A stretch of 64,000 nucleotides of DNA, taken from Hymenobacter siberiensis. Lineage in GTDB: Bacteria > Bacteroidota > Bacteroidia > Cytophagales > Hymenobacteraceae. Position 1 is the stretch's first letter. Each line of letters starts with the position of its first letter. The stretch covers positions 3,968,001 to 4,032,000 of the forward strand of contig NZ_JAHLZY020000001.1 in NCBI RefSeq assembly GCF_018967865.2. The letters run 5' to 3'. This document shows positions 4,623 through 24,049 of this stretch, in pieces. Below the pieces are notes generated by a model, which saw nothing but the letters and a program-made list of their open reading frames with translations, was not told the origin of the DNA and did not search any database. The translations under genes and the position numbers were made by a program.

Positions 4623-4667
4623 GTCATGCCGGGCATTCTGCGCATCAAGCAGAATGCCCGGCATGAC
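4623..4667. repeat. Perfect palindrome, GTCATGC family
   Basis: The arms GTCATGCCGGGCATTCTGC (4623-4641) and its exact reverse complement (4649-4667) enclose a 7-base loop. It lies between the Wzc-like gene and the flippase gene. It shares the GTCATGC end with the palindromes at 21465, 37017 and 59595. It has no trailing T run, so it is more likely a REP-like element or an mRNA-stabilising hairpin than a terminator. Confidence 0.85.
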
Positions 4668-4701
4668 ACTCACTCGCCTACCATCCAAAACCACCACCCC
4701 A

Positions 4702-6366: not shown

Positions 6367-6380
6367 CTCCCGCCCTGGCC

Positions 6381-7493
6381 ATGAAAATCCTGTACGAACC
6401 CGAGGCGTTTTCCATCCAGGATGTGGGGGGCGTTTCCCGCTATTTCTACGAGCTCATCGACCACGCCGGGCCGGAGGTGAGTTGCGAGCTACCCGTGGTG
6501 CTCAGCAACAACATTTACCTGAAGGACCGCAAGCACACCCGCCACCTGGGGCTGCTGCCCGGCATACCGGTGCCCGGCCTGTGGCGCATGATGCAATATG
6601 CCAACCGCAGGGCCTCGTGCAAAGCCATTCAGCGGCAGAAGTTCGACGTGTTTCACCCCACCACGAACGACCAGACTTGGTTTCTGGATTTGCTGAACAA
6701 GAAGCCGTTTGTCATCACCATTCACGACATGATTCCGGCGCTATTCAGCGAATTTTACCAGCGTTCCGGTACCGAGCTGAGCACGCTGGCCAGCCGGGCC
6801 GCCCGTATTATCACGGTTTCGGAAAACACCCGGGCCGACGTGCTGCGCCTGCTGCCCGTGCCCCCCGACCACGTAACCGTGGTGCACCACGGCCACACCG
6901 TGCGCCACTACCCCTACCAGGACGCCGTGGCCACCCCCGACGACTACCTGCTGTTCATCGGTAGCCGCCGGACCTATAAAAATTTCGGGTGCCTGGTGAA
7001 GGCCTTCGGGATGCTGCACGCCAAATATCCCAGCCTGCACCTGATGTGCGCCGGCGGCGGCCCCTTCACCGAGCAGGAAATGACCCAGCTGCGCGAAGCC
7101 GGCGTGGCCGAGCGCACCCACCAGCTCGGCTACCTCTCCGATGGCCAGTTGCACCACCTATACCACCGGGCGCGGGCTTTCGTATTTCCGTCGCTTTATG
7201 AGGGGTTTGGGTTTCCTATTCTCGAAGCATTCGGCCAGCAGTGCCCGGTGGTGCTCAGCAACGCCTCGTGCTTCCCGGAAATCGCGCAGGACGCAGCCCT
7301 CTACTTCGACCCCAGCAATGCCGACGACCTGCGCGAGCAGCTCGACCGTGTGCTCTACGACCACGCCCTGCGCCAGATTCTGGTGCGCCGGGGCCAGGAC
7401 CGGGTGCGCGATTTCACCTGGGCCCGCACCGTGGCCGATACCCACCGCGTGTACGAGGAGGCGCGGGAGGACTCGCCGATGCTGGCCTGCTAA
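6381..7493 (+). CDS. Glycosyltransferase family 4 (first of a tandem pair)
   Basis: A 370-residue GT-B enzyme. The N-terminal domain opens KILYEPEAFSIQDVGGVSRY, with the glycine-rich acceptor-side loop. The C-terminal GT4 domain carries LFIGSRRTYKNF and the donor-binding stretch FPSLYEGFGFPILEAFG, whose glutamates are the classic E-x7-E motif. It is expected to transfer a sugar from a nucleotide donor to the growing repeat unit at the cytoplasmic face. It starts 12 bases after the flippase stop, so it is in the same operon. It is closely similar along its whole length to the next gene. Sugar specificity cannot be told from sequence. Confidence 0.93.
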   Translation: MKILYEPEAFSIQDVGGVSRYFYELIDHAGPEVSCELPVVLSNNIYLKDRKHTRHLGLLPGIPVPGLWRMMQYANRRASCKAIQRQKFDVFHPTTNDQTWFLDLLNKKPFVITIHDMIPALFSEFYQRSGTELSTLASRAARIITVSENTRADVLRLLPVPPDHVTVVHHGHTVRHYPYQDAVATPDDYLLFIGSRRTYKNFGCLVKAFGMLHAKYPSLHLMCAGGGPFTEQEMTQLREAGVAERTHQLGYLSDGQLHHLYHRARAFVFPSLYEGFGFPILEAFGQQCPVVLSNASCFPEIAQDAALYFDPSNADDLREQLDRVLYDHALRQILVRRGQDRVRDFTWARTVADTHRVYEEAREDSPMLAC

Positions 7494-7588
7494 CGAGCGT
7501 GCGGCCGTTGCGCTCACCGAATTGCCGCCAGCGCCCGGCTTAGCCCTTTTTTCTCAATCGGCAGCTTCGCTGCTTTAGCCTTTGCCCG

Positions 7589-8719
7589 ATGAAAGTACTC
7601 TACGAACCCGAAACATTCTCTATTCAGGACTACGGTGGAGTATCGCGCTACTTCTACGAGCTTATCCATCATGCCGGGCCCGGCTTGACCTGCGACTTGC
7701 CAGTGGTGCTGAGCAACAATCTGTACCTGCGCGACCGGGAGCACACCCGGCACCGCCAGTTTTTGCCGGGCCTGCCCGTGCGCGGGCGCTGGCGGGTGAT
7801 GCAGTACTTTAACCGGCGGGCGGCCCGGCGGGCCATTGCGCGGCAGGACTACGATGTGCTGCACCCGACGGGCAACGACCAAGCTTATTTTCTGGATATT
7901 ATGGGTGACAAGCCGTTGGTTATCACCATCCATGATATGATTTCAACCTTGTTCAGCGAGTATTTCCAGTCGCGGGGGCCCGAGCTGGGCCTGCTGGCTG
8001 CCCGGGCTGCGCGCATCATCACCGTATCGGAACACACCCGGGCCGACGTGCTGCGCCTGCTGCCCGTGCGGCCCGAGCGGGTGGTGGTGGTGCACCACGG
8101 CCACGTGGTGCACCACAACTCGTCCCCAGTGCCCGTGGCCGCCCCCGACGACTACCTGCTCTTCACGGGCACGCGCCGGGACTACAAGAATTTCGGTTGC
8201 TTGGTAAAGGCCTTCGGCCTGCTGCACCAACAATACCCCGGCCTGCACCTGATGTGCGCCGGGGGCGGCCCCTTCAGCGAAGCCGAGCTGGTGATGCTGC
8301 GCGAGGCTGGCGTGGCCAAGCGCACCCACCAGCTCGGCTACCTCACCGATGACCAACTCAACCAGCTATACCACCGGGCGCGGGCCTTTGTGTTTCCCTC
8401 GCTGTATGAAGGGTTCGGGTTTCCTATTCTCGAAGCCTTCGGCCAGCAATGCCCCGTGGTACTCAGCAATGCCTCGTGCTTTCCCGAAATCGCGCAGGAT
8501 GCGGCCCAGTATTTTGATCCGTACGATGCCGACGACCTGCGCGAACAGCTCGACCGCGTGCTCTGCGACCGCGCGCTGCGCCATACGCTGGTCAACAGAG
8601 CACTGACGCGGGTGCGCGACTTCACTTGGGAGCGAGCGGCGGCCCAAACCCGGCAGGTGTACGAAGAAGCCCGACAGGATGCCCTGGTTTTAACCCCTGA
8701 AACCCAGCTGTTCTCCTGA
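7589..8719 (+). CDS. Glycosyltransferase family 4 (second of a tandem pair)
   Basis: A 376-residue GT-B glycosyltransferase and tandem paralogue of the gene at 6381. Both open with KxLYEPExFSIQDxGGVSRY and share ITVSExTRADVLRLLPV, LMCAGGGPF, and FPSLYEGFGFPILEAFGQQC with nearly identical nucleotide stretches. The GT4 E-x7-E motif is intact. The 95-base spacer is the only gap. Divergence is concentrated in the N-terminal, acceptor-side half, which fits duplication followed by acquisition of a new acceptor. It acts in the same pathway as its neighbour. Confidence 0.93.
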   Translation: MKVLYEPETFSIQDYGGVSRYFYELIHHAGPGLTCDLPVVLSNNLYLRDREHTRHRQFLPGLPVRGRWRVMQYFNRRAARRAIARQDYDVLHPTGNDQAYFLDIMGDKPLVITIHDMISTLFSEYFQSRGPELGLLAARAARIITVSEHTRADVLRLLPVRPERVVVVHHGHVVHHNSSPVPVAAPDDYLLFTGTRRDYKNFGCLVKAFGLLHQQYPGLHLMCAGGGPFSEAELVMLREAGVAKRTHQLGYLTDDQLNQLYHRARAFVFPSLYEGFGFPILEAFGQQCPVVLSNASCFPEIAQDAAQYFDPYDADDLREQLDRVLCDRALRHTLVNRALTRVRDFTWERAAAQTRQVYEEARQDALVLTPETQLFS

Positions 8720-8770
8720 GGAGTACGGGGCAACCCGGCCACTATTCAACTACCAACCACGCAACATCCC

Positions 8771-10102
8771 ATGAAACTCAGTTTACGCTTTCTGTATTTG
8801 CTGCCGGTGCTGGGCATCATCGCCACGGACCGGGCCTTCACCGAGTTCGTGTTTTTCGATGAAAGTTCGCCCATGCTCCAGCTATATGGGCGGCTGATGC
8901 TGGCCTGCTCGATGGGCATTGTCGTGCTCTGCTACCGGTACATGGGCACCATTATGCAGCGCTGGCTGCTGCTGGTGGTGGCCGCCCTGGGGGCGCTATC
9001 CCTCGAATCTTACGCCGGATGGCAGACGTGGGCGGTGTATCCGCACGTATTCGCCAAGTTCTTGGTCATGGTGCATGTGTTTGCGATTTACGGGTTTCAC
9101 CGCCGGTTTGGGCCGCCGCCATTTGGCCAGCTGATGGGGCTGCTGGTACTGGGCCTGGCCGCCAACCTGGCATTCTACCACCGGGACGCGCTGAGCTTAT
9201 CGGCATTTTTGGATAACGAGCGGGGGTTCAGCTCCACTTCGGCCATGCTGCTCCTGCTGCCTACCCTCTATTACTTCAACCAGTACATGGCGCACGGCGG
9301 GATGGCGCGTCTGCTGATATTTTTTCTGGGCACGGCGCTCATCCTTTTCCTGCAGCACCGTTCGGTGTGGCTATCAATGGGCGTCGCCCTGGCCCTCAAT
9401 GCCTTGGTGATGGCCCTGGGCCGGGTTACGGGCGCGCGCCTGAGCTCTACTCGCCTGCTGCCCATGTTTCTCATTCCGTTGCTCGTACTGGTTTCCGGGG
9501 GCCTCGTGGCCCTCAGCGACCCACACGTAGTGAAGAAGCTGGAAGGCAGTATCAACGACATCATGCGCCCCAGCCAGCAGGGCACGGGTGGCTGGCGACT
9601 CAAGCAGTTCAAAGCCTACAAGCCCTATCTGGAAGAATACCCCATTGCGGGCATGCGCCTGAAAGGGTTTGAGCTGCCGGTGCAGTTCTACACGCTGGCC
9701 GACGATGGCGGCAGCCAGGTGCCCGTGTGGGAAGACCGGACCGGGCATCACTTCCACAGTTTCTACGTCGACCGCATTTTTTACTTCGGCATTACCGGGC
9801 TGCTGCTCACGGTGCTGGTGCCCGTGCTGCTGCTGGGCCGCCGCCTGCTGAGCCCTATTCCCCTGACCCCGCCCACGGCCACCTTCGTCATCTTCTCGCT
9901 CAGCTCGCTGGTATACAGCGTTTCGTACGACTGGCCCCTGTATTTCTTCGGCATCCTCGGGCTGTCTCTGGCCGCCGCCGCCGCAGCTCCTGGCCGCGTG
10001 GCAGTGCGCCTGCCCATGGCCGCCCGTGCTGTGCGGCCGGCTTTTGTGTCCATTCCTTCCTTGAACCATGCCGACGCCGCCACTTCCACCACCCACCGCT
10101 GA
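8771..10102 (+). CDS. O-antigen ligase/polymerase-like membrane protein (Wzy/WaaL type)
   Basis: A 443-residue integral membrane protein with about 10-11 hydrophobic segments. A hydrophilic, probably periplasmic loop lies between about residues 245 and 330 (SDPHVVKKLEGSINDIM, GGWRLKQFKAYKPYLEEYP, DRTGHHFHSFYVDRIFYFG). An R-x-x-Q-F-K-A-Y segment and a later H-H-x-H-S-F are typical of the large loop of the O-antigen ligase/polymerase superfamily. Placed among glycosyltransferase and flippase genes, it is the best candidate for the repeat-unit polymerase. A polymerase cannot be told from a ligase by sequence alone. Its end overlaps the next gene by 35 bases. Confidence 0.82.
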   Translation: MKLSLRFLYLLPVLGIIATDRAFTEFVFFDESSPMLQLYGRLMLACSMGIVVLCYRYMGTIMQRWLLLVVAALGALSLESYAGWQTWAVYPHVFAKFLVMVHVFAIYGFHRRFGPPPFGQLMGLLVLGLAANLAFYHRDALSLSAFLDNERGFSSTSAMLLLLPTLYYFNQYMAHGGMARLLIFFLGTALILFLQHRSVWLSMGVALALNALVMALGRVTGARLSSTRLLPMFLIPLLVLVSGGLVALSDPHVVKKLEGSINDIMRPSQQGTGGWRLKQFKAYKPYLEEYPIAGMRLKGFELPVQFYTLADDGGSQVPVWEDRTGHHFHSFYVDRIFYFGITGLLLTVLVPVLLLGRRLLSPIPLTPPTATFVIFSLSSLVYSVSYDWPLYFFGILGLSLAAAAAAPGRVAVRLPMAARAVRPAFVSIPSLNHADAATSTTHR

Positions 10103-11075
10103 GCTGGCCCCGCCCGTTCTGCTCATCGTCTTCAACCGGCCGCACCTCACGCAGCGGGTGCTGGAAGCCGTGCGCCGGGCGCATCCGGCGCGCCTCTACG
10201 TGGCGGCCGACGGCCCCCGCCCCCACCACGCCACCGATGCCCTGCGCTGCGCCCTCACCCGCGCCATGGTTACCAACAGCGAGCCCTGGCCGTGCGAAGT
10301 CCTCACCTTGTTTCGGGACGAAAACCTGGGGTGCGGCCTAGGGCCGGCATCTGCCATTTCCTGGTTTTTCAAGCACGAAACCGAAGGGATTATCCTGGAA
10401 GACGACTGCCTCCCGACGCCCGATTTTTTCCACTTTTGCGATGAGCTGCTGCGGCACTACCGCCACGATACCCGCGTGATGCATATCAGCGGCAACAACC
10501 TGGCGCAGGAGGCCCGGCGCCCGGTAGCGGCCGGGGCCGACTCGTACCATTTTTCGGGCAGGGTGCACAGCTGGGGCTGGGCCACCTGGCGTCGCGCGTG
10601 GCAGTACTTCGATTTTGACCTGACCCTGCTGCCTGAGCTGCGCCGCCGCAGAGCGCTGACCAACGTGTACCCGGCCCTGATGGAGCGGCAGTATTGGCTG
10701 CGCAAGTTTGAAACCGTGCGCACCGGGCCGCAGCCGGCTCATATCTGGGACTACCAGTGGCACTTCGCTGTGGCCGCGCACGGTGGCCTCACGGTGATAC
10801 CGGCCGTGAACCTGGTTACCAACATCGGCTTCGGCGAGGATGCGACCCATACGTTCGACCCCCACGACCAGTTCGTGCACCCGGTGGTGTACCGGCTGCC
10901 GTTTCCCTTGCACCACCCCCCCGTGGTGCTGCGCGATGCCCGGCGCGACCAGCGGTACTTCCGCGAGCACCTGACGGGCCGCGCCCTGGCCATGGTCCGG
11001 CGGCTCACTGCCCGGCTGTTGCTCCCCTTTGCAACGGCCGAGCCCGTATCGCAGCCCGTAGCGGCCACGCCCTGA
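10068..11075 (+). CDS. GT2-like (GT-A fold) glycosyltransferase
   Basis: A 335-residue protein. PPVLLIVFNRPHLTQRVLEA at residues about 15-34 and YVAADGPRP form the nucleotide-binding start of a GT-A fold. EGIILEDDCLPTPDFF (about 105-120) holds the acidic DxD-like metal site, and WGWATWRRAW (about 168-177) is a motif repeatedly seen in this HlpA-like branch. It is probably cytoplasmic, adding a sugar to the repeat unit. It begins inside the end of the upstream polymerase gene in another frame, suggesting translational coupling. The poly-proline start (MPTPPLPPPTAELAPP) is unusual and might be partly untranslated, although no other ATG fits well. Confidence 0.85.
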   Translation: MPTPPLPPPTAELAPPVLLIVFNRPHLTQRVLEAVRRAHPARLYVAADGPRPHHATDALRCALTRAMVTNSEPWPCEVLTLFRDENLGCGLGPASAISWFFKHETEGIILEDDCLPTPDFFHFCDELLRHYRHDTRVMHISGNNLAQEARRPVAAGADSYHFSGRVHSWGWATWRRAWQYFDFDLTLLPELRRRRALTNVYPALMERQYWLRKFETVRTGPQPAHIWDYQWHFAVAAHGGLTVIPAVNLVTNIGFGEDATHTFDPHDQFVHPVVYRLPFPLHHPPVVLRDARRDQRYFREHLTGRALAMVRRLTARLLLPFATAEPVSQPVAATP

Positions 11076-11114
11076 GCTGCTATAATCAAATCGTACCCTT
11101 CTATTCTGCACCCG

Positions 11115-11954
11115 ATGCTCTACGTCGTCATTCCCGTTTTCAACCGCAAGCAGTACACCCGCGACTGCTTGCTTTCGCTCCGGCAGCAAACCCGCGCCGA
11201 TTTCCGCGTCGTCGTCGTCGACGACGGCTCCACCGATGGCACCGCCCAGATGCTGGCCCAGGAGTTTCCGGAAGTAGAAGTAGTGACCGGGAACGGCCAG
11301 CTGTTCTGGACGGCTGGCGTGAATGCCGGCATTCGCCGCGCCCTGGCCCTAAAAGCCACCTGCGTGATGACGATGAATAACGACGTACTGGCGCTGCCCA
11401 ATTTTATGGCCCAAATGCTGGCCGCCGCCGAGCGCCACCCCACCGCCCTGCTGGGGCCACTGGAGCTGGACGTGAGCACCGGCGAACCCGTGTACGGTGG
11501 CGAACGCCTGGACTGGCGCACCAATACCCGACGCGACTTACTGACCGAGCTGGCCCCCGCCGAGCGCCACGGCCTGCATCCGGTGACGTACCTGCCGGGC
11601 CGGGGCCTGCTCGTGCCGCTGGCCGTGATTGAAGCCATTGGCCTGTTCGACGAGCAGCGCCTGCCGCACTACCTCGCTGATTTTGACTACACCAGCGTGG
11701 CCCGCCGCCATGGTTTCCCGGTGTTTTGTAACTACGATGCCCGCTTGAGCACCTACCCCGAGGAAAGCGGCCAGGAACAAACCCGGCGCCAGCGTAGCCT
11801 GCGCGGCTATTACCAGCACTTGTTCGGCATCCGGGGCGGCGGCAATCTGGTCAATTTCACGCATTTCACCTTCAAAAACTGCCCCCGGCCCTACCTCCCC
11901 TATTACCTGCTGAACGGCTACGCCCGTCGGCTGGTCGGCTATTTTCTGCACTAA
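11115..11954 (+). CDS. Glycosyltransferase family 2
   Basis: A 279-residue GT-A enzyme. LYVVIPVFNRKQYTRDCLLS and VVVVDDGSTDGT are the hallmark GT2 N-terminus, and TMNNDVLA supplies the metal-binding acidic site. The later LPGRGLLVPLAVIEAIGLFD is typical of the rhamnosyltransferase-like subgroup. It lies 39 bases after the preceding glycosyltransferase and 41 before the GT11-like gene, in one operon. It is expected to add one sugar of the repeat unit; donor and linkage cannot be read from sequence. Confidence 0.92.
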   Translation: MLYVVIPVFNRKQYTRDCLLSLRQQTRADFRVVVVDDGSTDGTAQMLAQEFPEVEVVTGNGQLFWTAGVNAGIRRALALKATCVMTMNNDVLALPNFMAQMLAAAERHPTALLGPLELDVSTGEPVYGGERLDWRTNTRRDLLTELAPAERHGLHPVTYLPGRGLLVPLAVIEAIGLFDEQRLPHYLADFDYTSVARRHGFPVFCNYDARLSTYPEESGQEQTRRQRSLRGYYQHLFGIRGGGNLVNFTHFTFKNCPRPYLPYYLLNGYARRLVGYFLH

Positions 11955-11995
11955 GCGCTACGTCCCACATCCACCACTTTTAAGCCACAATACCC

Positions 11996-12925
11996 ATGGT
12001 CATTCTTACAAAAGATTTCAACGGCTTCGGTAACCAGCTGCTGATAAGCTCTCATTTTTTAGTGAATGCCCTTGAGCACAACTATCAGCTGGCCATCCCC
12101 TCGTTCGGGGCACATTACGCCTTTTTTGAAGGCACTGCCGGCCAGCAGGTGGCCTCGTTTGGGGGGCTGCCCGTGCAGCTGCATCTCGGCAGTGCCGTGA
12201 CCAATGCGTTGTATAGCGCCCTGCAGTGGCAGTGGGGCGAGGCCTTGCTTCGACGCCTTCCCTGGCTGCCGCGCAGCCTGGGTGCCCCGATTCTCGACGA
12301 CTCCGGCCCCGACGATGTCGACCTCAACAGCACTGGCTACCTCGTGCAGGCCCGCCACACGCGCACCCTGCTCATAAACGGCTGGCAGTTTCGCGACAAA
12401 ACCAACTTTGCCAAGCACGGCAACCTGCTCCGGCAGTTCTTTCGGCCCATCAGGCTCCACCGCCAGGCCGTAGAGCAGGTACTGGCCACCAACCGCGAAC
12501 GGGCCGATGTCCTGGTGGGCATCCACATTCGCCGGGGCGACTATGCCGGCTGGTACGGTGGGGCCTTTCTCTACAGCAATGCCACCTACGTGCGGGCCAT
12601 GCACGAAGTCGTGGCCTTATTCCCCCAAGAAACCCGGGTCCGGTTCCTGTTATTTTCGAACGAGCCCATTCCGGCGGCCGATTTTGCCGAATTCGACACC
12701 GGCCGCTCCACCAACCATCCCGTGGAGGACCTGTATGCCATGGCCGGCTGCGACTACATTGTGGGGCCGCTCAGCACCTACTCCATGTGGGCCTCGTTCT
12801 ACGGCCGCGTCCCGCTTTGCCACCTGCACCAGCACGACCAGCCCATCACGTCGCTACACGAATTCGTGATGTTTGAGGACCAGGAAACCGTGCAGTGGAG
12901 CACGCAGATGGCGCAAGCGCTATGA
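11996..12925 (+). CDS. Alpha-1,2-fucosyltransferase-like protein (GT11)
   Basis: A 309-residue protein. GFGNQLL near residue 10 resembles the first GT11 motif (GLGNQ). HIRRGDY at residues 177-183 is the conserved motif I that binds the GDP part of GDP-fucose in alpha-1,2 and alpha-1,6 fucosyltransferases. LFSNEP and the DLYAMAGCDYIVGPLSTYSMWA region match the later motifs of the family. It would use GDP-L-fucose, which the gmd-fcl pair at 19326-21444 can supply. Its stop codon overlaps the start of the next gene (ATGA), so the two are translationally coupled. Confidence 0.85.
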   Translation: MVILTKDFNGFGNQLLISSHFLVNALEHNYQLAIPSFGAHYAFFEGTAGQQVASFGGLPVQLHLGSAVTNALYSALQWQWGEALLRRLPWLPRSLGAPILDDSGPDDVDLNSTGYLVQARHTRTLLINGWQFRDKTNFAKHGNLLRQFFRPIRLHRQAVEQVLATNRERADVLVGIHIRRGDYAGWYGGAFLYSNATYVRAMHEVVALFPQETRVRFLLFSNEPIPAADFAEFDTGRSTNHPVEDLYAMAGCDYIVGPLSTYSMWASFYGRVPLCHLHQHDQPITSLHEFVMFEDQETVQWSTQMAQAL

Positions 12926-14229
12926 GCCGCCCGGCCACCGGAGCGGCGGTCCGCCGCTGGCAGCTGGCCGCCGGGGTGGGCCTGGCGGCCATCACGGCCG
13001 GGTGTCAGCCTTCCTCTGCCGGCGCAGATAACAGCTCGAAACCGTTGATTATTCGCGCTGGGGGCACTTATACCGGCTCTTACCGCAGCTCCGATTCCGA
13101 CGTGCCCTGCATCCGTATCGAAACCACCGAACCCGTTACCCTGAGCGGCTGCACCCTGATGGGGGCCGGCGACTTGATTCGGGCCACCAGCGGCGGGGCT
13201 ACGCTTACGGTTGTGAACTGCCGGGGATACGGCCTGCCGCAATCGGCTGACCAAACCCGCCACGGGCACTTCCTAGAGGTCAATTCCGGGCGCTCTGTGC
13301 GGGTCGAACACAACTACTTTGAGCATACCATCGGCATCAGCATTTACCAATGGGGAGGCGACGGCACGCCAGCCCAAACGCTCACCGTTCGCTACAATTC
13401 GGCCCGGAATATTGATGGCCGCTACCGTGACGGCGGCGGCACGAAGGCGAATTTCCTGGGTCTGAACGCATTGCCGGGCGTAGCCAACATGGAAATCGCC
13501 TGGAACCAAGTCATCAACGAGCCCAACCAGTCGCTTGTAGAGGACAATATCAATCTTTATAACTCCGGAGGCACCCGCACCAGCCCGGTCCGTATCCACG
13601 ACAATTATATTCAGGGAGCATACCCCTATCCGGCCACCGGCTCCGATTTCACCGGCTCGGGCATTACGCTCGATGGCAGTGGCCGCGCCGCCTTGACGGC
13701 CACCGCTTACGTGGACGGAGCCCACAACCAGGTAGTCAGCGCCTGCATTGGCATGAACATAGCCGCCGGGCACGACAACCACTTTCACGACAACCGCCTC
13801 GTTACCTGCGGCTTGCTGCCCGACGGCACCCGGCTGGCGGCGAACTATGCCGGGGCAGGCCTTTGGAATGCCTACCATCAGCCCAAGGACGTATTCTTTA
13901 ACAACGATTTCAGCAACAATACTATCGGGTTCTATTTCGAAGGCGGCACCACTCCTTATCCCAACCGCCAGGATATCCGGCCCGAAGCCTGCGGGGCCTG
14001 CTCAAACACCTTGCACCTACCCAACCCCATCACCCTGCAAACGGAACAGGCCGAGTGGACCCGCTGGCAGTTGAAGCTCCGCACGCACCGGCTGCGGGTA
14101 GGTCCCCTCCCGGCCCTACCGGCACGCAAAAATGCGCTCATAACATCTGGTGCCACTTATTACCCCACCAACGGGCACTTCGCGCCCGTCGCACCAGAAC
14201 TATCATATTATAATATATTGTTTAATTAA
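12922..14229 (+). CDS. Lipoprotein with right-handed parallel beta-helix
   Basis: A 435-residue protein starting at the ATG that overlaps the fucosyltransferase stop; a longer in-frame start at 12895 is less likely. The N-terminus has a hydrophobic stretch and a lipobox (AAITAGC, Cys28). From about residue 45 to 360 it has repeating turns of the form IRxxx/VRxEHNYF/VRYNSARNIDGRY/IAWNQVINEPNQSLVEDNIN/VRIHDNYIQGAYPYP. These indicate a parallel beta-helix of the pectate-lyase or alginate-epimerase type. It is a close paralogue of the next gene's N-terminal half but has no repeats after the helix. In an exopolysaccharide operon it may cleave, epimerise or bind the polymer; the activity is inferred from the fold only. 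Confidence 0.82.
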   Translation: MSRPATGAAVRRWQLAAGVGLAAITAGCQPSSAGADNSSKPLIIRAGGTYTGSYRSSDSDVPCIRIETTEPVTLSGCTLMGAGDLIRATSGGATLTVVNCRGYGLPQSADQTRHGHFLEVNSGRSVRVEHNYFEHTIGISIYQWGGDGTPAQTLTVRYNSARNIDGRYRDGGGTKANFLGLNALPGVANMEIAWNQVINEPNQSLVEDNINLYNSGGTRTSPVRIHDNYIQGAYPYPATGSDFTGSGITLDGSGRAALTATAYVDGAHNQVVSACIGMNIAAGHDNHFHDNRLVTCGLLPDGTRLAANYAGAGLWNAYHQPKDVFFNNDFSNNTIGFYFEGGTTPYPNRQDIRPEACGACSNTLHLPNPITLQTEQAEWTRWQLKLRTHRLRVGPLPALPARKNALITSGATYYPTNGHFAPVAPELSYYNILFN

Positions 14230-14715: not shown

Positions 14716-17700
14716 ATGCAAAAAATTTCAAAGCACACCTCCGCTCTTCTTTCTGCGCCGCATCCTTTGGCCGGCATTCTTTCAACTGCTCTTGTTGCGC
14801 TCCTCGCCCTATTACCGGGCCTAAAACCAGCCTTCGCACAGGCTCCCAACATTACGTACTCCAGCCCCTTGGTTATTACACAGGGCGGCACCTATTCCGG
14901 CAATTATCGCAGCACCAACTCTTCGGTGCCCGTTATCACTATTCAGACCACCCAGCCTGTTATCATCGAGAACTGTGTGCTGGCGGGCGCCGGCGACATC
15001 ATTGATGCGAAGAACGGCGGCAGCAGTATCACTGTCCGCAACAACAAAGCGTATGGCCTCACCCAAAGCGCCGACGGGGTTCGCCACGGCCGCTTCGTGG
15101 AGGTTAACTCGGCTAAGTCGGTGGTAATTGAGCACAATTACCTCGAACAAACCACTGGCATTGCCATCTACCAGTGGAGCGGCAACGGTTCGACGGCCCA
15201 AACCCTTACGGTTCGGTACAACTCGGCCAAAAACATCGACGGCCGCTTCCGCAACAACAGCGGCAGCGAATTCTCTAACTTCCTGGGGGCAGACAAGGTG
15301 CCGAACCTGGCGAACGTAGAAGTGGCCTGGAATCAGGTCATCAACGAGCCCAACCAGTCGCTTGTAGAGGACAATATCAACTTCTACAACTCCGGGGGCA
15401 CTGCGGCCAGCCCCGTCCGCATCCACGACAACTACGTGCAGGGAGCGTACCCCTACCCGGCCAACGGCAGCGATTTTACGGGCACCGGCATGATAATCGA
15501 CGGTACTCAGAGTAACACCCAAGGCTTCTTTGAGTCGTACAACAACCAGTTCGTATCTACCTGCAACTCGGCCATGAACATCGCCGGCGGCCATGATGTA
15601 CATTACTACGACAACCGCCTAGTGACCAGCGGCCTGATGCCCGACGGTTCGCGCCTGAATGCCACTTACACCGGGGTTGCCGTATTCGACTACTACGGTC
15701 AGAGCGGAACATTCACGAACCAGTCCGTAACCAACAACACGATTGGTTACGTGCAATGGGGCCGCAATAGTCCTTTTCAGGACCGTCAGGATGAGGGCGA
15801 CTACGGCTTTCGAATTGCCACCGGTACCATCCACCTGCCGAACCCCATCACCCTCCAAACCGAGCGGGATGAGTTCACGCGTTGGAACCAAAAGCTGCAA
15901 CAGAATGGCATCACGCTGGACCCCGGCGCTACCACACCCACTACCCCAACCGCGCCTACCGCACCCAGCGCCCCCACCGTTAGCCTGAGCGCCCCGAGCA
16001 CCGGCACCGTGGGCACGGCCCTGAACCTGACGGCCACCGCTGCGGCCGTCAACGGCACCATCACCAAAGTCGAGTTCTTCAGCGGCGCCACCAAGCTCGG
16101 CGAAGACCTGACGGCTCCCTACGCCCTCAGCTTCACGCCCGCTGCGGCCGGCACGCTCAGCCTAACGGCCCGCGCCACCAACAACGCCGGCGCCGCTACC
16201 TCCACCGCCGTTTCTTCGGTGACCGTGACGGCCGCTACTACAACCACGCCGACCACCACGGGCACCGGCACCACGCCGACCAACGCCACCTTCGTGCGCG
16301 CCATTAACGTAGGCGGCACGGCCACCACCGTCGACGGCCTGAGCTGGGAAGACGGCAACAGCGCCGGCAACTTCCAAATCAACGGCTCGCCCTTCGCCAA
16401 CCAGGGCGTCGCCCTGAACCCGGCCACCGACGCCGCCCGTGCGGCCATGATTCGCGCTTCGGTGTATGACACGAACATTAGCGCTGCCGTGAGCGGCGTG
16501 GCCAGCGGTACCTACAGCGTGTACCTCTACATGTGGGAGGATAACAACCCGGTGACCCTCGACATTACCCTCGAAGGCCAGACCGTGCAGTCGAACTACA
16601 GCAGCGGCAACGGTGGCCACTGGGACCGCCTCGGCCCTTTCACGGCCAACATCACCGACGGCACCATCAACATCGGCACCGTGAGCAGCAATAACAACAA
16701 CCTCTCGGGCATCGAAATCTGGAAGCAGAACGCGGGCACTACCGCACCCAGCGCCCCCACCGTTAGCCTGAGCGCCCCAAGCACCGGCACCGTGGGCACG
16801 GCCCTGAACCTGACGGCCACCGCTGCGGCCGTCAACGGCACCATCACCAAAGTCGAGTTCTTCAGCGGCGCCACCAAGCTCGGCGAAGACCTGACGGCTC
16901 CCTACGCCCTCAGCTTCACGCCCGCTGCGGCCGGCACGCTCAGCCTAACGGCCCGCGCCACCAACAACGCCGGCGCCGCTACCTCCACCGCCGTTTCTTC
17001 GGTGACCGTGACGGCCGCTACTACAACCACGCCGACCACCACGGGCACCGGCACCACGCCGACCAACGCCACCTTCGTGCGCGCCATTAACGTAGGCGGC
17101 ACGGCCACCACCGTCGACGGCCTGAGCTGGGAAGACGGCAACAGCGCCGGCAACTTCCAAATCAACGGCTCGCCCTTCGCCAACCAGGGCGTCGCCCTGA
17201 ACCCGGCCACCGACGCCGCCCGTGCGGCCATGATTCGCGCTTCGGTGTATGACACGAACATTAGCGCTGCCGTGAGCGGCGTGGCCAGCGGTACCTACAG
17301 CGTGTACCTCTACATGTGGGAGGATAACAACCCGGTAACCCTCGACATTACCCTCGAAGGCCAGACCGTGCAGTCGAACTACAGCAGCGGCAACGGTGGC
17401 CACTGGGACCGCCTCGGCCCTTTCACGGCCAACATCACCGACGGCACCATCAACATCGGCACCGTGAGCAGCAATAACAACAACCTCTCGGGCATCGAAA
17501 TCTGGAAGCAGAACGCGGGCACTACCGCACCCAGCGCCCCCACCGTTAGCCTGAGCGCCCCAAGCACCGGCACCGTGGGCACGGCCCTGAACCTGACGGC
17601 CACCGCTGCGGCCGTCAACGGCACCATCACCAAAGTCGAGTTCTTCAGCGGCGCCACCAAGCTCGGCGAAGACCTGACGGCTCCCTACGCCCTCAGCTTC

Positions 17701-19077
17701 ACGCCCGCTGCGGCCGGCACGCTCAGCCTAACGGCCCGCGCCACCAACAACGCCGGCGCCGCTACCTCCACCGCCGTTTCTTCGGTGACCGTGACGGCCG
17801 CTACTACAACCACGCCGACCACCACGGGCACCGGCACCACGCCGACCAACGCCACCTTCGTGCGCGCCATTAACGTAGGCGGCACGGCCACCACCGTCGA
17901 CGGCCTGAGCTGGGAAGACGGCAACAGCGCCGGCAACTTCCAAATCAACGGCTCGCCCTTCGCCAACCAGGGCGTCGCCCTGAACCCGGCCACCGACGCC
18001 GCCCGTGCGGCCATGATTCGCGCTTCGGTGTATGACACGAACATTAGCGCTGCCGTGAGCGGCGTGGCCAGCGGTACCTACAGCGTGTACCTCTACATGT
18101 GGGAGGATAACAACCCGGTGACCCTCGACATTACCCTCGAAGGCCAGACCGTGCAGTCGAACTACAGCAGCGGCAACGGTGGCCACTGGGACCGCCTCGG
18201 CCCTTTCACGGCCAACATCACCGACGGCACCATCAACATCGGCACCGTGAGCAGCAATAACAACAACCTCTCGGGCATCGAAATCTGGAAGCAGAACGCG
18301 GGCACTACCGCACCCAGCGCCCCCACCGTTAGCCTGAGCGCCCCGAGCACCGGCACCGTGGGCACGGCCCTGAACCTGACGGCCACCGCTGCGGCCGTCA
18401 ACGGCACCATCACCAAAGTCGAGTTCTTCAGCGGCGCCACCAAGCTCGGCGAAGACCTGACGGCTCCCTACGCCCTCAGCTTCACGCCCGCTGCGGCCGG
18501 CACGCTCAGCCTAACGGCCCGCGCCACCAACAACGCCGGCGCCGCTACCTCCACCGCCGTTTCTTCGGTGACCGTGACGGCCGCTACTACAACCACGCCG
18601 CCTACTACCACGCCGCCCACCTTTGTGCGTGCCGTGAACCTGGGGGGCAAGGCCATCACCCTCGATGGCAAGAGCTGGGCGGCCAGCGCCAGCGCTTCTA
18701 ACTTCAAAGCTACCGGCCTCACCACGTTTGCCAACCAGAACGTGACCCTGACGCCTTCCACCGATGCCACCCGCGCCAGCATGATTCGCGCATCGATGTA
18801 CGGCGGCGACACGGGCCTGGCCCTGGGCGGCGTATCGAGCGGTACCTACAGCGTGTTTCTATACGTGTGGGAGGACAACAATGCGGAAAACTTCAGCATC
18901 TCCCTCGAAGGCAAGACTGTGCTGAGCAACTACAACTCCGGTTCGGCCGGCCACTGGGACCGCCTCGGCCCCTTCACGGCCAACGTGACCGATGGCACCG
19001 TGAACATTGGCACCACCGGCGGCATGGCCAACATCTCGGGCATCGAACTCTGGAAACAAGCCACCCCGCTGCCCTAG
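14716..19077 (+). CDS. Giant secreted beta-helix protein with Ig-like/malectin-like repeats
   Basis: A 1453-residue secreted protein. The ATG at 14716 opens a signal peptide (MQKISKHTSALLSAPHPLAG... ending AFAQ); an in-frame TTG at 14659 gives a worse start. Residues about 40-405 form a parallel beta-helix closely similar to the neighbouring lipoprotein (SADGVRHGRFVEVNS, WNQVINEPNQSLVEDNIN). Then come three 261-residue units, nearly identical in DNA, each an Ig-like domain (APTVSLSAPSTGTVGTALNL) plus a T/G-rich linker and a malectin-like domain (FVRAINVGGTATTVDGLSW, YMWEDNNP, LSGIEIWKQ). A fourth Ig-like domain and a divergent malectin-like domain finish the protein. No T9SS sorting domain is seen, so it is probably released or held by its own sugar-binding domains. 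It is likely a polymer-binding or polymer-processing protein; the function is inferred. Confidence 0.85.
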   Translation: MQKISKHTSALLSAPHPLAGILSTALVALLALLPGLKPAFAQAPNITYSSPLVITQGGTYSGNYRSTNSSVPVITIQTTQPVIIENCVLAGAGDIIDAKNGGSSITVRNNKAYGLTQSADGVRHGRFVEVNSAKSVVIEHNYLEQTTGIAIYQWSGNGSTAQTLTVRYNSAKNIDGRFRNNSGSEFSNFLGADKVPNLANVEVAWNQVINEPNQSLVEDNINFYNSGGTAASPVRIHDNYVQGAYPYPANGSDFTGTGMIIDGTQSNTQGFFESYNNQFVSTCNSAMNIAGGHDVHYYDNRLVTSGLMPDGSRLNATYTGVAVFDYYGQSGTFTNQSVTNNTIGYVQWGRNSPFQDRQDEGDYGFRIATGTIHLPNPITLQTERDEFTRWNQKLQQNGITLDPGATTPTTPTAPTAPSAPTVSLSAPSTGTVGTALNLTATAAAVNGTITKVEFFSGATKLGEDLTAPYALSFTPAAAGTLSLTARATNNAGAATSTAVSSVTVTAATTTTPTTTGTGTTPTNATFVRAINVGGTATTVDGLSWEDGNSAGNFQINGSPFANQGVALNPATDAARAAMIRASVYDTNISAAVSGVASGTYSVYLYMWEDNNPVTLDITLEGQTVQSNYSSGNGGHWDRLGPFTANITDGTINIGTVSSNNNNLSGIEIWKQNAGTTAPSAPTVSLSAPSTGTVGTALNLTATAAAVNGTITKVEFFSGATKLGEDLTAPYALSFTPAAAGTLSLTARATNNAGAATSTAVSSVTVTAATTTTPTTTGTGTTPTNATFVRAINVGGTATTVDGLSWEDGNSAGNFQINGSPFANQGVALNPATDAARAAMIRASVYDTNISAAVSGVASGTYSVYLYMWEDNNPVTLDITLEGQTVQSNYSSGNGGHWDRLGPFTANITDGTINIGTVSSNNNNLSGIEIWKQNAGTTAPSAPTVSLSAPSTGTVGTALNLTATAAAVNGTITKVEFFSGATKLGEDLTAPYALSFTPAAAGTLSLTARATNNAGAATSTAVSSVTVTAATTTTPTTTGTGTTPTNATFVRAINVGGTATTVDGLSWEDGNSAGNFQINGSPFANQGVALNPATDAARAAMIRASVYDTNISAAVSGVASGTYSVYLYMWEDNNPVTLDITLEGQTVQSNYSSGNGGHWDRLGPFTANITDGTINIGTVSSNNNNLSGIEIWKQNAGTTAPSAPTVSLSAPSTGTVGTALNLTATAAAVNGTITKVEFFSGATKLGEDLTAPYALSFTPAAAGTLSLTARATNNAGAATSTAVSSVTVTAATTTTPPTTTPPTFVRAVNLGGKAITLDGKSWAASASASNFKATGLTTFANQNVTLTPSTDATRASMIRASMYGGDTGLALGGVSSGTYSVFLYVWEDNNAENFSISLEGKTVLSNYNSGSAGHWDRLGPFTANVTDGTVNIGTTGGMANISGIELWKQATPLP
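15961..18600 (+). repeat. 783-bp tandem repeat, three full copies plus a partial fourth
   Basis: Copies start at 15961, 16744, 17527 and 18310, exactly 783 bases (261 codons) apart. The fourth follows the others for about 290 bases and then diverges. Only isolated single-base differences were seen, for example GCCCCGAGC in copies 1 and 4 versus GCCCCAAGC in copies 2 and 3, and GGTAACC only in copy 2. Such identity, including third codon positions, points to very recent duplication or ongoing homogenisation. Confidence 0.97.
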
Positions 19078-19114: not shown

Positions 19115-19146
19115 AAAAGCCTGGCCCCTGCGGCCAGGCTTTTTTG
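19115..19146 (+). terminator. Rho-independent terminator
   Basis: AAAAGCCTGGCC pairs with GGCCAGGCTTTTTT around a CCTGC loop. It lies 38 bases after the stop of the giant repeat protein and separates it from gmd. Confidence 0.9.
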
Positions 19147-19325: not shown

Positions 19326-20441
19326 ATGAAATGTGCATTAATTACTGGAATTACGGGCCAGGACGGGGCCTATCTGGCCGAGCTGCTGCTGGCTAAAGGG
19401 TACGAAGTGCACGGCATCAAGCGCCGCTCGTCGATGTTCAACACCGACCGCATCGACCACTTGTACCAGGACCTGCACGAGAAGGACGTACGCTTCAAGC
19501 TGCACTACGGCGACCTGTCGGACGCCACGAACCTGATTAGAATCGTGCAGGAAGTGCAGCCCGACGAGATTTACAACCTCGGGGCCATGTCACACGTCAA
19601 GGTTTCGTTCGACACGCCCGAGTACGCGGCCGATGTGGACGGGCTGGGCACGCTGCGCCTATTGGAGGCCATCCGCATTCTGGGCCTGGGCAAAAAAACC
19701 CGGCTCTATCAGGCTAGCACGTCCGAGCTGTACGGGCTGGTGCAGGAGGTGCCGCAGCGCGAGAGCACGCCCTTCTATCCGCGCTCGCCCTACGCTGTGG
19801 CCAAGCTTTATGCCTACTGGATTACGGTGAACTACCGCGAGGCCTACGGCCTGTATGCCTGCAACGGCATCCTGTTTAACCACGAAAGCCCGCGCCGGGG
19901 CGAAACCTTTGTCACGCGCAAAATTACGCGGGCCGTGGTGCGCATCGCGCTGGGCCTGCAGGACCGCCTCCACCTCGGCAACCTGAACGCCCGGCGCGAC
20001 TGGGGCCACGCCAAGGACTACGTGGAGGCCATGTGGCGCATGCTGCAGCAGGACGAGCCGCGCGACTACGTGATTGCCACCGGCGTAACCACCCGGGTGC
20101 GCGAGTTTGTGCGGCTGGCTTTCGCCGAGCTGGGCGTAGAAATAGACTTTGCGGGCGAGGGCGTGGCCGAAGTGGGCTACGTGGTAGCCTGCCACAACCC
20201 CGATTTCCAGCTGCGGGCCGGCCAGGAAGTGGTGGCCGTGGACGCGGCCTACTTCCGCCCCACCGAGGTAGAGCTGCTCATCGGCGACCCCAGCCGGGCA
20301 CGAGCCGAGCTGGGCTGGGTGCCCAAGTATGACCTGGCCGGCCTGGTGAGCGACATGGTGCAGAGCGACCTGACGCTGTTCCGGCGCGATACCGTGCTGC
20401 TGCAAGCCGGTCACGCCGTGCTCAACTACCACGACGAGTAG
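19326..20441 (+). CDS. gmd: GDP-mannose 4,6-dehydratase
   Basis: A 371-residue extended SDR of the usual Gmd length. The Rossmann motif is [16 protein letters not shown], with the substrate-loop [16 protein letters not shown], the catalytic STSELYG and Y-x3-K (YAVAK), and the Gmd-specific [19 protein letters not shown]. It converts GDP-D-mannose to GDP-4-keto-6-deoxymannose, the first step to GDP-L-fucose. It lies 52 bases before fcl, forming a two-gene GDP-fucose unit that feeds the GT11-like fucosyltransferase. An AT-rich stretch at 19200-19290, right after the terminator, is the likely promoter region. Confidence 0.97.
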
Positions 20442-20493
20442 CCGGCCCCGGCCCCGTACACCCTTCCTCCGTTCCGACTTCGCTTTTTTACTC

Positions 20494-21444
20494 ATGGAAA
20501 AGACTTCCAGCATATACATCGCCGGCCACCGGGGCATGGTGGGCTCGGCCCTGCTGCGCGAGCTCACGCGCCGGGGCTACACCAACCTCATCACCCGCAC
20601 CTCGGCCGAGCTCGACCTGACCAACCAGGCCGCCGTGGCCCGCTTTTTTGCCAAAAACCGGCCCGAGTACGTGCTACTGGCCGCCGCCAAGGTGGGCGGC
20701 ATCCACGCCAACAACACCCTGCGGGCCGATTTCATCTATGAAAACATCATGATTGAGGCCAACGTGCTACACGAAAGCTACCGCTGCGGCGTGCGCAAGC
20801 TGCTGTACCTGGGCTCGTCGTGCATCTACCCGAAGCTGGCCCCGCAGCCCATCCGCGAAGAGTACATCCTCACCGGCCCGCTGGAGCACACCAACGAGCC
20901 CTACGCCATTTCCAAAATCGCGGGCGTGAAGATGTGCGAGGCCTACCGCGACCAGTACGGGTGCAACTTCATCACGGTGATGCCCACCAACCTCTACGGC
21001 CCCAACGACAACTACGACCTGGAAAGCTCGCACGTGATGGCCGCCCTGCTCCGCAAGTTTGAGGAAGCCGTGCAGCACCACCGGCCCCGCGTGGACGTGT
21101 GGGGCACCGGCACCCCCCGCCGCGAGTTCCTGCACGTGGACGACCTGGCCGAGGCCTGCCTCTTCCTGATGGACCACTACGACGAAGCCGCCCCCCTGAA
21201 CGTGGGCACCGGCGACGACCTGAGCATCCGTGAGCTGGCCGAGCTCATTGCCGACCTCACGGGCTTTGCCGGCGAAATCTACTTCGACTTCTCGCGGCCC
21301 GACGGCACCATGCGCAAGGTGCTCGATGTGAGCAGGATAGAGGCAATGGGCTGGCGCCACCGCATTTCGCTGCACGCCGGCCTGCGCCAGGTGCTGGCTT
21401 CGGCCGAGTGGCAGGCCGCCAACCAGGCCGTGCCCGTGCAGTAG
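20494..21444 (+). CDS. fcl: GDP-L-fucose synthase
   Basis: A 316-residue SDR. GHRGMVGSALLREL is the NADP-binding loop, LLAAAKVGGIHANN and LYLGSSCIYPKLAPQPI are family signatures, and YAISK holds the catalytic Tyr and Lys. It is the bifunctional 3,5-epimerase/4-reductase that finishes GDP-L-fucose synthesis after gmd. All catalytic residues look intact, and the length matches the family. Confidence 0.97.
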   Translation: MEKTSSIYIAGHRGMVGSALLRELTRRGYTNLITRTSAELDLTNQAAVARFFAKNRPEYVLLAAAKVGGIHANNTLRADFIYENIMIEANVLHESYRCGVRKLLYLGSSCIYPKLAPQPIREEYILTGPLEHTNEPYAISKIAGVKMCEAYRDQYGCNFITVMPTNLYGPNDNYDLESSHVMAALLRKFEEAVQHHRPRVDVWGTGTPRREFLHVDDLAEACLFLMDHYDEAAPLNVGTGDDLSIRELAELIADLTGFAGEIYFDFSRPDGTMRKVLDVSRIEAMGWRHRISLHAGLRQVLASAEWQAANQAVPVQ

Positions 21445-21464
21445 CCGGTAGACTGGCGATAAAG

Positions 21465-21500
21465 GCCCGTCATGCCTCGGCGGCGCTCGGCATGACGGGC
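21465..21500. repeat. Palindrome, GTCATGC family
   Basis: GCCCGTCATGCC (21465-21476) and GGCATGACGGGC (21489-21500) are exact reverse complements, with a G+C-rich, partly symmetric middle. It sits between fcl and the first GT61 gene. Confidence 0.85.
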
Positions 21501-21555
21501 TAAACCAATACACCTCCTGACCACCATCCGCCTTCATCCTTTTTCCGCTGTGAAA

Positions 21556-22764
21556 ATGACTGATATTCTGAACCGTGGGCAGCAGCGGGCGGGCCGCCTG
21601 CTGCGCGAGCTGCTGCCCCGCCGCCAGCACTACCGCCCCGTGGGCGTGCACCCCAGCAGCCGGGGCGTGGCCACCCGGCCCGACAGCGGGGCGCGCTACA
21701 CCGAGGTGTACCCCACGCAGATATCGCACCTCAATGTGACGCCCGACCTGTATGCCCACACCACCGACTACGGCGGCCTGCATGCCAAGCCCAACCGCCT
21801 GGAGCAGACCCCGGCGGCCTTCGTGCTGGCCCTGGCCGAGGGCCGCCTGCTGGCCGACAACGCCCTGAGCGTGGCCGTCATCAGCGCCGACAACCGGCTG
21901 GTGGGCGATGCCTCGTTTCAGTACGACCCCCGGCGCTCGGACCTGGCCCGGCCCGAGAAAAACAACGTGTTTGCCCAGCGCTGGTTTTCGGAGCCGCGCC
22001 GGGTGCGCGGCACGGTGGCCAGCCTGCTGTCGGGCGGCGGGGCGGCGATGGGCAACTATTACCACTGGCTGATTGACTCGCTGCCGCGCCTGCACCTGCT
22101 GAAAAAAGCAGGTTTCTGGGACGAAATCGACTATTTTCTGGTGTACGATGGGCAGCGGCGCTTCGTGGCCGACTCGTTGCGCGCCCTGGGCATCCGGCCC
22201 GAGCAGGTGCTCGACCTGCGCACCCACCGCCACCTCGTGGCCGACCGCCTGCTGGTGACTTCGCCCGTGCGCGGCGCGGGCACCCACACCCCGCAATGGG
22301 CCTGCTCCTTCCTGCGCGACGAGCTGCGCGCCGCCGCCGCGCCCCAAACTTTCAGCCCCTACGTGTACCTAAGCCGGCGCGACGCCCCCGCCCGCCACGT
22401 TCTCAACGAGCCCGATGTGGAAGCCCTGCTGCGCCCCTACGGCTTCGAGACGCACGTGCTGGGCGACTACAGCTTTGGGCAGCAGTTGGCGCTGTTTGCC
22501 GGGGCGCGGGCCGTGGTGGCCCCCACCGGCGCGGGTCTGGCCAACCTGGTGTTTGCCCCGGCCGGCACGCCGGTGGTCGAGCTGTTCCCCAAGCACTTCA
22601 CGGTAGTGGAATACCCCGAGCTGTGCTTCCGCCTGGGCCTGCCCCACCGCTACCTGGTGGCCGATGCCGCCAATGGCCCGCTCACCTCGCGCCGCGCCGG
22701 CTGGCGCGAAAATCTCACCGTGGACCTCAACGCCCTCAGCAGCTGCCTGCACCAGGTGCTGTGA
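21556..22764 (+). CDS. Glycosyltransferase family 61 (first of a tandem pair)
   Basis: A 402-residue GT61 (DUF563) protein. Key segments are GNYYHWLIDSLPRLHLL (about residue 170), YVYLSRRDAPARHVLNEPDV (about 270), and LFAGARAVVAPTGAGLANLV with TPVVELFP (about 315-350), which form the C-terminal GT-B nucleotide-sugar site. It is expected to transfer one sugar to the repeat unit. The ATG at 21556 (MTDILNRGQQRAG) is chosen over the GTG at 21550 because it aligns with the start of its tandem paralogue. It is probably in one transcript with the next two glycosyltransferases. Confidence 0.88.
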   Translation: MTDILNRGQQRAGRLLRELLPRRQHYRPVGVHPSSRGVATRPDSGARYTEVYPTQISHLNVTPDLYAHTTDYGGLHAKPNRLEQTPAAFVLALAEGRLLADNALSVAVISADNRLVGDASFQYDPRRSDLARPEKNNVFAQRWFSEPRRVRGTVASLLSGGGAAMGNYYHWLIDSLPRLHLLKKAGFWDEIDYFLVYDGQRRFVADSLRALGIRPEQVLDLRTHRHLVADRLLVTSPVRGAGTHTPQWACSFLRDELRAAAAPQTFSPYVYLSRRDAPARHVLNEPDVEALLRPYGFETHVLGDYSFGQQLALFAGARAVVAPTGAGLANLVFAPAGTPVVELFPKHFTVVEYPELCFRLGLPHRYLVADAANGPLTSRRAGWRENLTVDLNALSSCLHQVL

Positions 22765-22819
22765 TGCCGGGCCAGCCCCCGTCGAGCTTAACGCTTCCCA
22801 CCAGTTAACCTATCTTATT

Positions 22820-24049
22820 ATGCAAGAACTATTTACCCGGGCCCAACGGCACACCGGCCACCTGCTGCGGGGCTTGGTGCCGCACAACGAACACCTGCGC
22901 CCCACCGGCGTGCACCCCACTGCCAAAGCCCTGGCCGAGCAGCCCGGCAGCGGCGCGCACTACGTGGAAGTATACCCCGGCTACACTTCGCACCTCACCG
23001 TGCCCGACGCGTTTGTGGCCCTGGCTCCGCCCTACTACAAGTGCATTGCCGAACGGGAAGAAGTACCAGCCGCATTCGTGCTGCTGCTGCCCGACGCCCG
23101 CATCAACGCCGACCATTTTGGCAGCCTGGCCGTGATAGCGGCCGATAATTACCTGGTGGGCGATGTGTCGCTGCAATTTTCGGCAGGCAGCTTCGCGGTG
23201 GCCCCACCGGCGGAAAACCCCATTTTCCGGCAGCGCTACTTCCGGCCGCCGGGCCAGGTTTCGGGCACGGTGTGCAGCCTGCTGTCGGGCGGCGGCACGG
23301 CCGTGGGCAATTACTACCACTGGCTGCTCGACTCGCTGCCCCGCCTGCATTTGGTGGAAGAAGCCGGGTTGTGGGACGAAATCGACTACTTCCTGATTTA
23401 CAACCGCGAGCAGCACTTCGTGATGGAAACCCTGCTGGCGCTGGGCATTCGCAACGAGCAGATTATCGACCTGCAAACCACCACCCACCTGCATGCCCAA
23501 CGGCTGCTGCTTACCTCGCCGGTGCGCGGCACCGGCCACCACGCCCCGCGCTGGGTGGGCGAGTTTATGAAGGATGCCTTCCGGCCCCTGGCCACCACGG
23601 CGGCGCACGCCACCCACTTCAGCCCGCTGGTGTACGTGAGCCGGCGCGATGCCTCCTTTCGGCGGGTGCGCAACGAGGCCGAGGTGGAGGACCTGCTGGC
23701 CGAATACGGCTTCGAGAGCTACGCCCTCACCGAGCTGAGCTTTCGCGAGAAGGCGGCCCTGTTTTCCGGGGCGCGGGCGGTGGTGGGACCGGTGGGCGCG
23801 GGCCTGGCCAACATTCTGTTTTGTGCCGAGGGCACGCCGCTCATCGAGCTGCTGCCCCGCAACCTGGTAGTGCCCGACTACCTCGACCTCACGGCCCGCC
23901 TGGGCATGCCGCACTATCCCATCATCTGCATGCCGGACGCGGGCTCGCGCCACCGCGCCACCGCCGACCGCCAGGACGACCTCACCGTGGACCTGAAAGC
24001 CCTGCGCCAAACCGTGGAAGCCGCCCTGCGCCAGCCGGTGAATGCGTAA
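22820..24049 (+). CDS. Glycosyltransferase family 61 (second of a tandem pair)
   Basis: A 409-residue tandem paralogue of the preceding GT61. GNYYHWLLDSLPRLHLVEEA, YVSRRDASFRRVRNEAEVED and LFSGARAVVGPVGAGLANIL are conserved. The N-termini align (RAQRHTGHLLRGLVP against RGQQRAGRLLRELLP), which supports the ATG at 22820; a longer frame back to 22664 overlaps the upstream gene and is not needed. It lies 55 bases after its paralogue. Donor sugar is unknown. Confidence 0.88.
   Translation: MQELFTRAQRHTGHLLRGLVPHNEHLRPTGVHPTAKALAEQPGSGAHYVEVYPGYTSHLTVPDAFVALAPPYYKCIAEREEVPAAFVLLLPDARINADHFGSLAVIAADNYLVGDVSLQFSAGSFAVAPPAENPIFRQRYFRPPGQVSGTVCSLLSGGGTAVGNYYHWLLDSLPRLHLVEEAGLWDEIDYFLIYNREQHFVMETLLALGIRNEQIIDLQTTTHLHAQRLLLTSPVRGTGHHAPRWVGEFMKDAFRPLATTAAHATHFSPLVYVSRRDASFRRVRNEAEVEDLLAEYGFESYALTELSFREKAALFSGARAVVGPVGAGLANILFCAEGTPLIELLPRNLVVPDYLDLTARLGMPHYPIICMPDAGSRHRATADRQDDLTVDLKALRQTVEAALRQPVNA

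Follow-up and report, generated by a model that had tools for sequence, protein, structure and literature searches.

Ig-like and malectin-like repeat arms in a beta-helix protein of a Hymenobacter siberiensis exopolysaccharide locus, and recombination inside its gene

Comparison with described systems

Proteins that change length through intragenic recombination are known above all as host-facing spacers. In the passages available from PMC8201768 and PMC9704523, the Periscope Proteins SasG, Rib and Sgo_0707 combine near-identical tandem folded domains with a functional N-terminal domain, and intragenic recombination is proposed behind the change in domain number; the term 'gene conversion' is absent from the main texts of both papers. 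A similar process is described here for an environmental bacterium, acting on carbohydrate-binding-type arms inside an exopolysaccharide locus. The gene lies in a stretch of 64,000 nucleotides of Hymenobacter siberiensis (contig NZ_JAHLZY020000001.1, positions 3,968,001 to 4,032,000), called the window below. It encodes a protein of 1453 amino acids (aa), in which a right-handed beta-helix domain is followed by four immunoglobulin-like (Ig-like) modules, each with a malectin-like domain; one such pair is a unit, and the malectin-like part is its arm (A or B). The product is probably a secreted multivalent matrix protein, the number and identity of its arms being set by intragenic recombination. 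The genetic part of this reading is firm, and the functional part is what we infer.

The protein shares with Periscope Proteins the tandem array of highly similar folded domains (three protein-identical units) and the functional domain at the N-terminus. Unlike in Periscope Proteins, the units carry a carbohydrate-binding-type domain, and the homogenised tract is often one module rather than a whole unit. The number of units varies between species but is equal in the isolates compared (two genomes and one protein record). Periscope Proteins project from an anchored C-terminus; here the beta-helix is N-terminal, and Pfam and NCBIfam searches of the protein matched no anchor family. The array could nevertheless be a spacer of this type, whose sole role would be to hold the beta-helix at a given distance from the cell, sugar binding by the arms being unnecessary. 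Ig-like repeats are the usual stalk units of Periscope Proteins, as parts of PMC8201768 describe, and the functional domain likewise precedes the repeats. This is unlikely, as a whole malectin-like domain kept in every unit would make a poor spacer, no anchor was found and the linker within the unit is modelled at low confidence.

The job proposed here is closer to that of CdrA of Pseudomonas aeruginosa, a secreted beta-helix matrix protein which, in the sections available of PMC2847200 and PMC8201768, binds the polysaccharide of its own cell and has a repeat region of varying size. CdrA differs, as far as these sources go, in its two-partner secretion and in its MBG_2-type repeats without malectin-like domains. 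The genetics of the protein resemble those of Periscope Proteins and its proposed job resembles that of CdrA; it is filed with neither group, as no number change between isolates and no surface anchor were seen. The CdrA gene is not known to lie in the polysaccharide cluster.

Other systems share single traits. The C-terminal region of Bacteroides uniformis beta-glucuronidase 2 (6d8g, 5uj6) has a single such pair of domains on a glycoside hydrolase; superposed on the unit described here, it gives a root mean square deviation of 18.5 over 223 residues, the domains being oriented differently. RbmB of Vibrio cholerae (9ozl) and the PL6, AlgG and AlgE beta-helix enzymes are without arms and gave no credible sequence match to the protein. 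LigA and LigB of Leptospira also have near-identical Ig-like domains for which gene conversion is proposed, but, according to the portion of PMC7821625 available, conversion is between two genes and the domains inside one protein are not repeats. The giant surface proteins of Apilactobacillus are similarly large and extracellular, with short intragenic recombination and homogenisation; in the part of PMC12863079 available, exchange is between strains and genes, not between arms inside one gene. No paper describing this protein was recognised among the listed titles and abstract openings of the open-licence literature on repeat conversion, malectin, the species and polysaccharide in the genus.

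The repeat array and its origin

The array has a period of exactly 783 base pairs (bp), each full unit encoding 261 aa (Table 1). In DNA the three full units differ at just two columns, unit positions 41 and 599, which are silent third-codon positions, and the protein sequences of their Ig-like and malectin-like domains are identical. The first 295 nt of the fourth copy show no difference from unit 1 and one difference from each of units 2 and 3. Divergence sets in at about 18601, and the malectin-like domain of unit 4 has 62% protein and 73-74% DNA identity to arm A (computed on strain PAMC 29290). Judged from the letters themselves, 783 bp recurring three times in frame at >99.7% identity would be far beyond chance. 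The array is absent from the output of Tandem Repeats Finder, whose longest period here was 500. An earlier note on this DNA had described three near-identical 783-bp in-frame units, each an Ig-like plus malectin-like pair, with a fourth switching to a diverged copy. This was borne out, with the first unit starting at 15956 instead of 15961. Its 'few single-base changes, including at third codon positions' do exist, and the wording understates them, all being at third positions. The 'giant' polysaccharide-locus protein does belong to a Wzx/Wzy-type locus but is large rather than giant.

The Ig-like modules belong to Big_7 (PF17957), which matched four stretches of the protein with 116.8 bits against a Pfam cut-off of 24.1. 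The malectin fold of arm A was recognised by fold comparison of the predicted structure and not by Pfam; the model predicts folded domains around a low-confidence linker. The N-terminal domain was found to have the right-handed beta-helix fold. Pfam gave Beta_helix below the cut-off only, and a PDB sequence search gave no credible match. Assignment of the beta-helix to one family was also tried, and many families were tied, none being chosen.

The genus was sampled as 34 loci from a contig scan, 30 from a genus search (92 of 120 genomes matched, only part of the matches being retrieved) and 40 further stretches selected from the genus-search matches. Contained duplicates were removed, and counts refer to open reading frames (ORFs), not species, some genomes having given two. 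Among the 52 ORFs with at least two malectin-like domains, 39 have two, 12 have three and one, that of H. siberiensis, has four; the two-arm layout A-B is the commonest among the relatives sampled. In a tree built on 82 domains of the first two sample sets, units 1-3 fall with the first arms of H. artigasi, H. negativus and H. frigidus, and unit 4 with their second arms. The tree has few columns and many unresolved forks, while the arm A and arm B groupings have bootstrap values of 96-100. It follows from this placement, as read from the domain sequences, that an A-B ancestor became A-A-A-B by tripling of arm A. The duplicated stretch spans from one Ig module to the next, as crossing-over between Ig modules predicts.

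The relatives L020, L054 and L060 and the protein P0009 also have malectin-like arms that are nearly the same inside a single protein (98-100% amino-acid identity), marking duplication or conversion on other branches. In P0009 both arms are of type A and 100% identical, which resembles arm replacement and is a lead only (4.8-kb metagenome contig, protein only).

Recombination inside the gene

The beta-helix and the arms differ in their relation to other species. Compared with H. artigasi, identity per 100 bp is 48-75% in the beta-helix, 87% in the block with the start of the first Ig module (Ig-1) and 89-100% beyond. In the wider locus, identity is 94% for the Wzc segment and 95.6% for the region from the end of the gene up to and including GT61, against 68-80% in the Wzx, Wzy, GT2, GT11 and beta-helix segments; the terminal blocks of the downstream comparison contained no aligned bases and are excluded. 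The step is smaller with H. negativus: mostly 54-83% before, 74% in the boundary block and 84-91% after. The database proteins P0002 and P0003 share the beta-helix at 93-94%, while their first arm differs (74% and 72%) and they have two arms only. The identity step at Ig-1 and the pattern of P0002 and P0003 establish, on alignment evidence, that the beta-helix and the arms have separate histories and recombined near the Ig-1 edge. The same comparisons place the divergence of the beta-helix together with that of the polymer-synthesis genes.

This bears on the possibility that the arms bind a foreign polysaccharide, the protein then serving as an enzyme in scavenging or defence instead of belonging to the bacterium's own matrix. 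Many Bacteroidota use beta-helix lyases with carbohydrate-binding modules to feed on foreign glycans, which gives the idea a precedent. It is improbable to about the same degree as a pure spacer, given that Wzy- and GT2-like genes adjoin the homologues in 30 of 34 loci and that the beta-helix diverges jointly with the polymer-synthesis genes. Under the preferred reading, the protein of this Wzx/Wzy exopolysaccharide locus would be secreted, with a beta-helix and then several Ig-like plus malectin-like arms. The beta-helix probably acts on or grips the polymer (a putative activity), and the arms, to judge by fold and locus, probably bind the same polymer at several points. The protein would thereby cross-link the matrix or keep the beta-helix on the polymer. 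Homologous recombination (unequal crossing-over, gene conversion) between the near-identical Ig modules flanking the arms would add or remove one Ig-plus-arm unit in frame. Such a model can be tested and would explain how a matrix protein alters its valency and tracks a changing polymer.

Strains of the species point to continued exchange between the copies. PAMC 29290 (L008), a separate assembly, is 99.4% identical to the window over 26 kb and is also A-A-A-B, its protein having no amino-acid difference. The two strains differ at 12 single bases in 14200-19300, 8 of them within the array. Variation over the six strain copies is confined to four unit columns, all silent, and the variable columns are shared by non-corresponding copies, copy 2 of the window being identical to copy 1 of PAMC 29290. 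For differences of independent origin, every one in copies 1 and 3 would coincide with one of the four columns seen in copy 2 with a probability of about 4e-10, or 3e-8 if only third positions are considered. From the four shared silent columns and so small a chance of coincidence it follows, as far as sequence comparison reaches, that copies swapped places or converted one another since the two strains split. The protein record P0001 (longest contig 4,769,090 bp) is a third one with a length of 1453 aa, and its one difference from the window is Asp1247Ser in the fourth Ig module (Ig-4); it is one representative of a four-sequence cluster and may be another assembly of a strain already counted. 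Ser1247 of P0001 is the residue of Ig-2 of H. artigasi, and Asp in the window and PAMC 29290 is that of units 1-3, which agrees with exchange between copies.

A single recent triplication that has been static since, its units being identical because they are young, could also give near-total identity and an equal copy number in both strains. It is slightly less probable than the two alternatives above, for it leaves aside the four columns shared across non-corresponding copies, the identity of window copy 2 with PAMC copy 1 and the two forms of residue 1247. Over- or under-expansion of the array in assembly, a possibility raised in the earlier note, is hardly credible: short reads often mis-assemble such repeats, but two assemblies with contigs >4.6 Mb (4,644,800 bp for the window, 4,709,305 bp for PAMC 29290) agree on the number while their silent haplotypes differ.

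The genus-wide sample shows the mode of the process: homogenisation affects a tract of roughly one module, and the modules next to it retain histories of their own. The nearest DNA relative is within the same protein for 46 of 62 Ig modules (30 proteins with at least two Ig modules) and for 37 of 118 malectin-like domains (52 proteins). Among 27 proteins with at least two of both domains, there are 13 in which every malectin domain has its nearest relative in another protein; the Ig modules of these 13 are nearest within the protein in 10, mixed in one and not so in two. In H. pini (L024) and H. metallilatus (L018), internal Ig identity is 99.6% and 100%, against about 85% between the species, and the malectin domains pair by position. 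Where only Ig modules are homogenised, the identical tract hardly extends beyond the module itself. Measured at fourfold sites, 17 of the 27 proteins have an Ig pair nearer than their closest malectin pair; the Ig pair is the more distant one in 9, and one protein is tied (Wilcoxon p 0.02, not adjusted for relatedness). Selection acting on the protein alone was rejected as the cause of identity, since several proteins have Ig modules that are identical even at fourfold sites. Homogenisation of Ig modules only was rejected as well, the closest malectin pair being nearer at fourfold sites in L012, L013, L048, L054, L055, L068, L069, L106 and L052, by a minimal margin in some of the nine. In a few species, L054 foremost, the malectins are the homogenised partner.

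The Ig modules might serve as interchangeable joints for arm shuffling, each a tract of about 290 bp that selection, or the recombination process as such, keeps near-identical; we hold this idea tentatively and rather doubt it. If it is true, the joints would let arms be duplicated, lost, converted and swapped, and the beta-helix could be replaced with the polymer-synthesis cassette while the arms stay. The exopolysaccharide locus would then contain a built-in arm-shuffling device.

Several observations weigh against the reading of a matrix protein shaped by recombination. No difference in arm number was seen within the species. The malectin-like domains stay below the Pfam cut-off for Malectin (PF11721 / CBM57), arm A giving no match and arm B 14.2 bits against 23; 5 of 32 units gave weak matches (best E 0.014). 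The failure to match an anchor family counts here as well. Homogenisation is not limited to Ig modules, as the nine contrary proteins indicate; the proteins were counted without regard to relatedness, and for several relatives the assembly comes from short reads, which could smooth repeats of 290 bp. The suggestion of the earlier note that unequal exchange changes the arm number in frame holds insofar as the frame is kept, relatives carry two, three or four arms and exchange between the two strains is visible. Length variability within the species, which it had also expected, was not found: the same copy number, named there beforehand as the outcome that would speak against it, is what two genomes and an equal-length third record have, on two or three isolates only. 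Its 'stalk' gained no support, neither an anchor nor a type IX C-terminal sorting domain (PF18962 or NCBIfam models) being matched in this protein and the linker being modelled at low confidence. PF18962 is carried by dozens of homologues among the 120 matches listed.

The surrounding locus and minor observations

Table 1. Features of the gene and its neighbourhood (positions in the window)
Feature	Position	Strand	Remark
Upstream polysaccharide locus	1308..12925	+	Export protein, Wzc-like, flippase-like, two GT4, Wzy-like, unknown, GT2, GT11 (Pfam)
Paralogous beta-helix gene without arms	12895..14229	+	57% identical to the beta-helix of the protein described here
Host ORF	14716..19077	+	From first ATG
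Signal-peptide-like start	14716..14838	+	Judged by eye from translation; first ATG at 14716
Right-handed beta-helix domain	14845..15903	+	
Unit 1 (arm A)	15956..16738	+	Ig-like 15967-16227, malectin-like 16291-16725
Unit 2 (arm A)	16739..17521	+	DNA identical to copy 1 of PAMC 29290
Unit 3 (arm A)	17522..18304	+	
Fourth Ig-like module	18305..18600	+	Equal to unit 1 over first 295 nt
Diverged malectin-like domain (arm B)	18622..19056	+	Orthologous to second arm of H. artigasi, H. negativus, H. frigidus
Terminator-like hairpin, 12 pairs, 3' of gene	19115..19143	+	
Downstream genes	19326..24049	+	GDP-mannose 4,6-dehydratase, epimerase family, two GT61 (Pfam)

The order of the upstream polysaccharide genes is conserved in relatives. 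The paralogous beta-helix gene sits in the segment that diverges from H. artigasi. The downstream epimerase would be fucose-synthase-like by position, which makes the link to fucose an inferred one. Terminator-like hairpin sites are not enriched (6 observed, mean of 7.4 in shuffles).

The ORF at 10068-11075 has no Pfam or NCBIfam match; 30 of the 34 related loci have a homologue, each time accompanied by Wzy- and GT2-like genes, and the ORF is a conserved unknown of the polysaccharide locus. The adjacent GT4 genes (6381-7493 and 7589-8719) are 74% identical in protein, and both match one single gene in H. negativus and H. frigidus (L009, L011) within the DNA compared; the pair may be a recent duplication here. 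The adjacent GT61 genes (21550-22764 and 22664-24049) are 50% identical over 408 columns. Their ORFs overlap by about 100 bp, and the start of the second may be later than the listed ORF start.

Farther downstream, a 1708-aa ORF on the minus strand (28548-33674) combines four stretches of Flg_new_2 (InlB B-repeat) with a domain resembling glucose/sorbosone dehydrogenase and with PKD domains; its region includes, at 29237-29658, a repeat with a period of 222 bp in 1.9 copies. Short tandem repeats with periods of 8, 16, 9/17/26 and 8 are clustered within 1 kb at 39316-40319.

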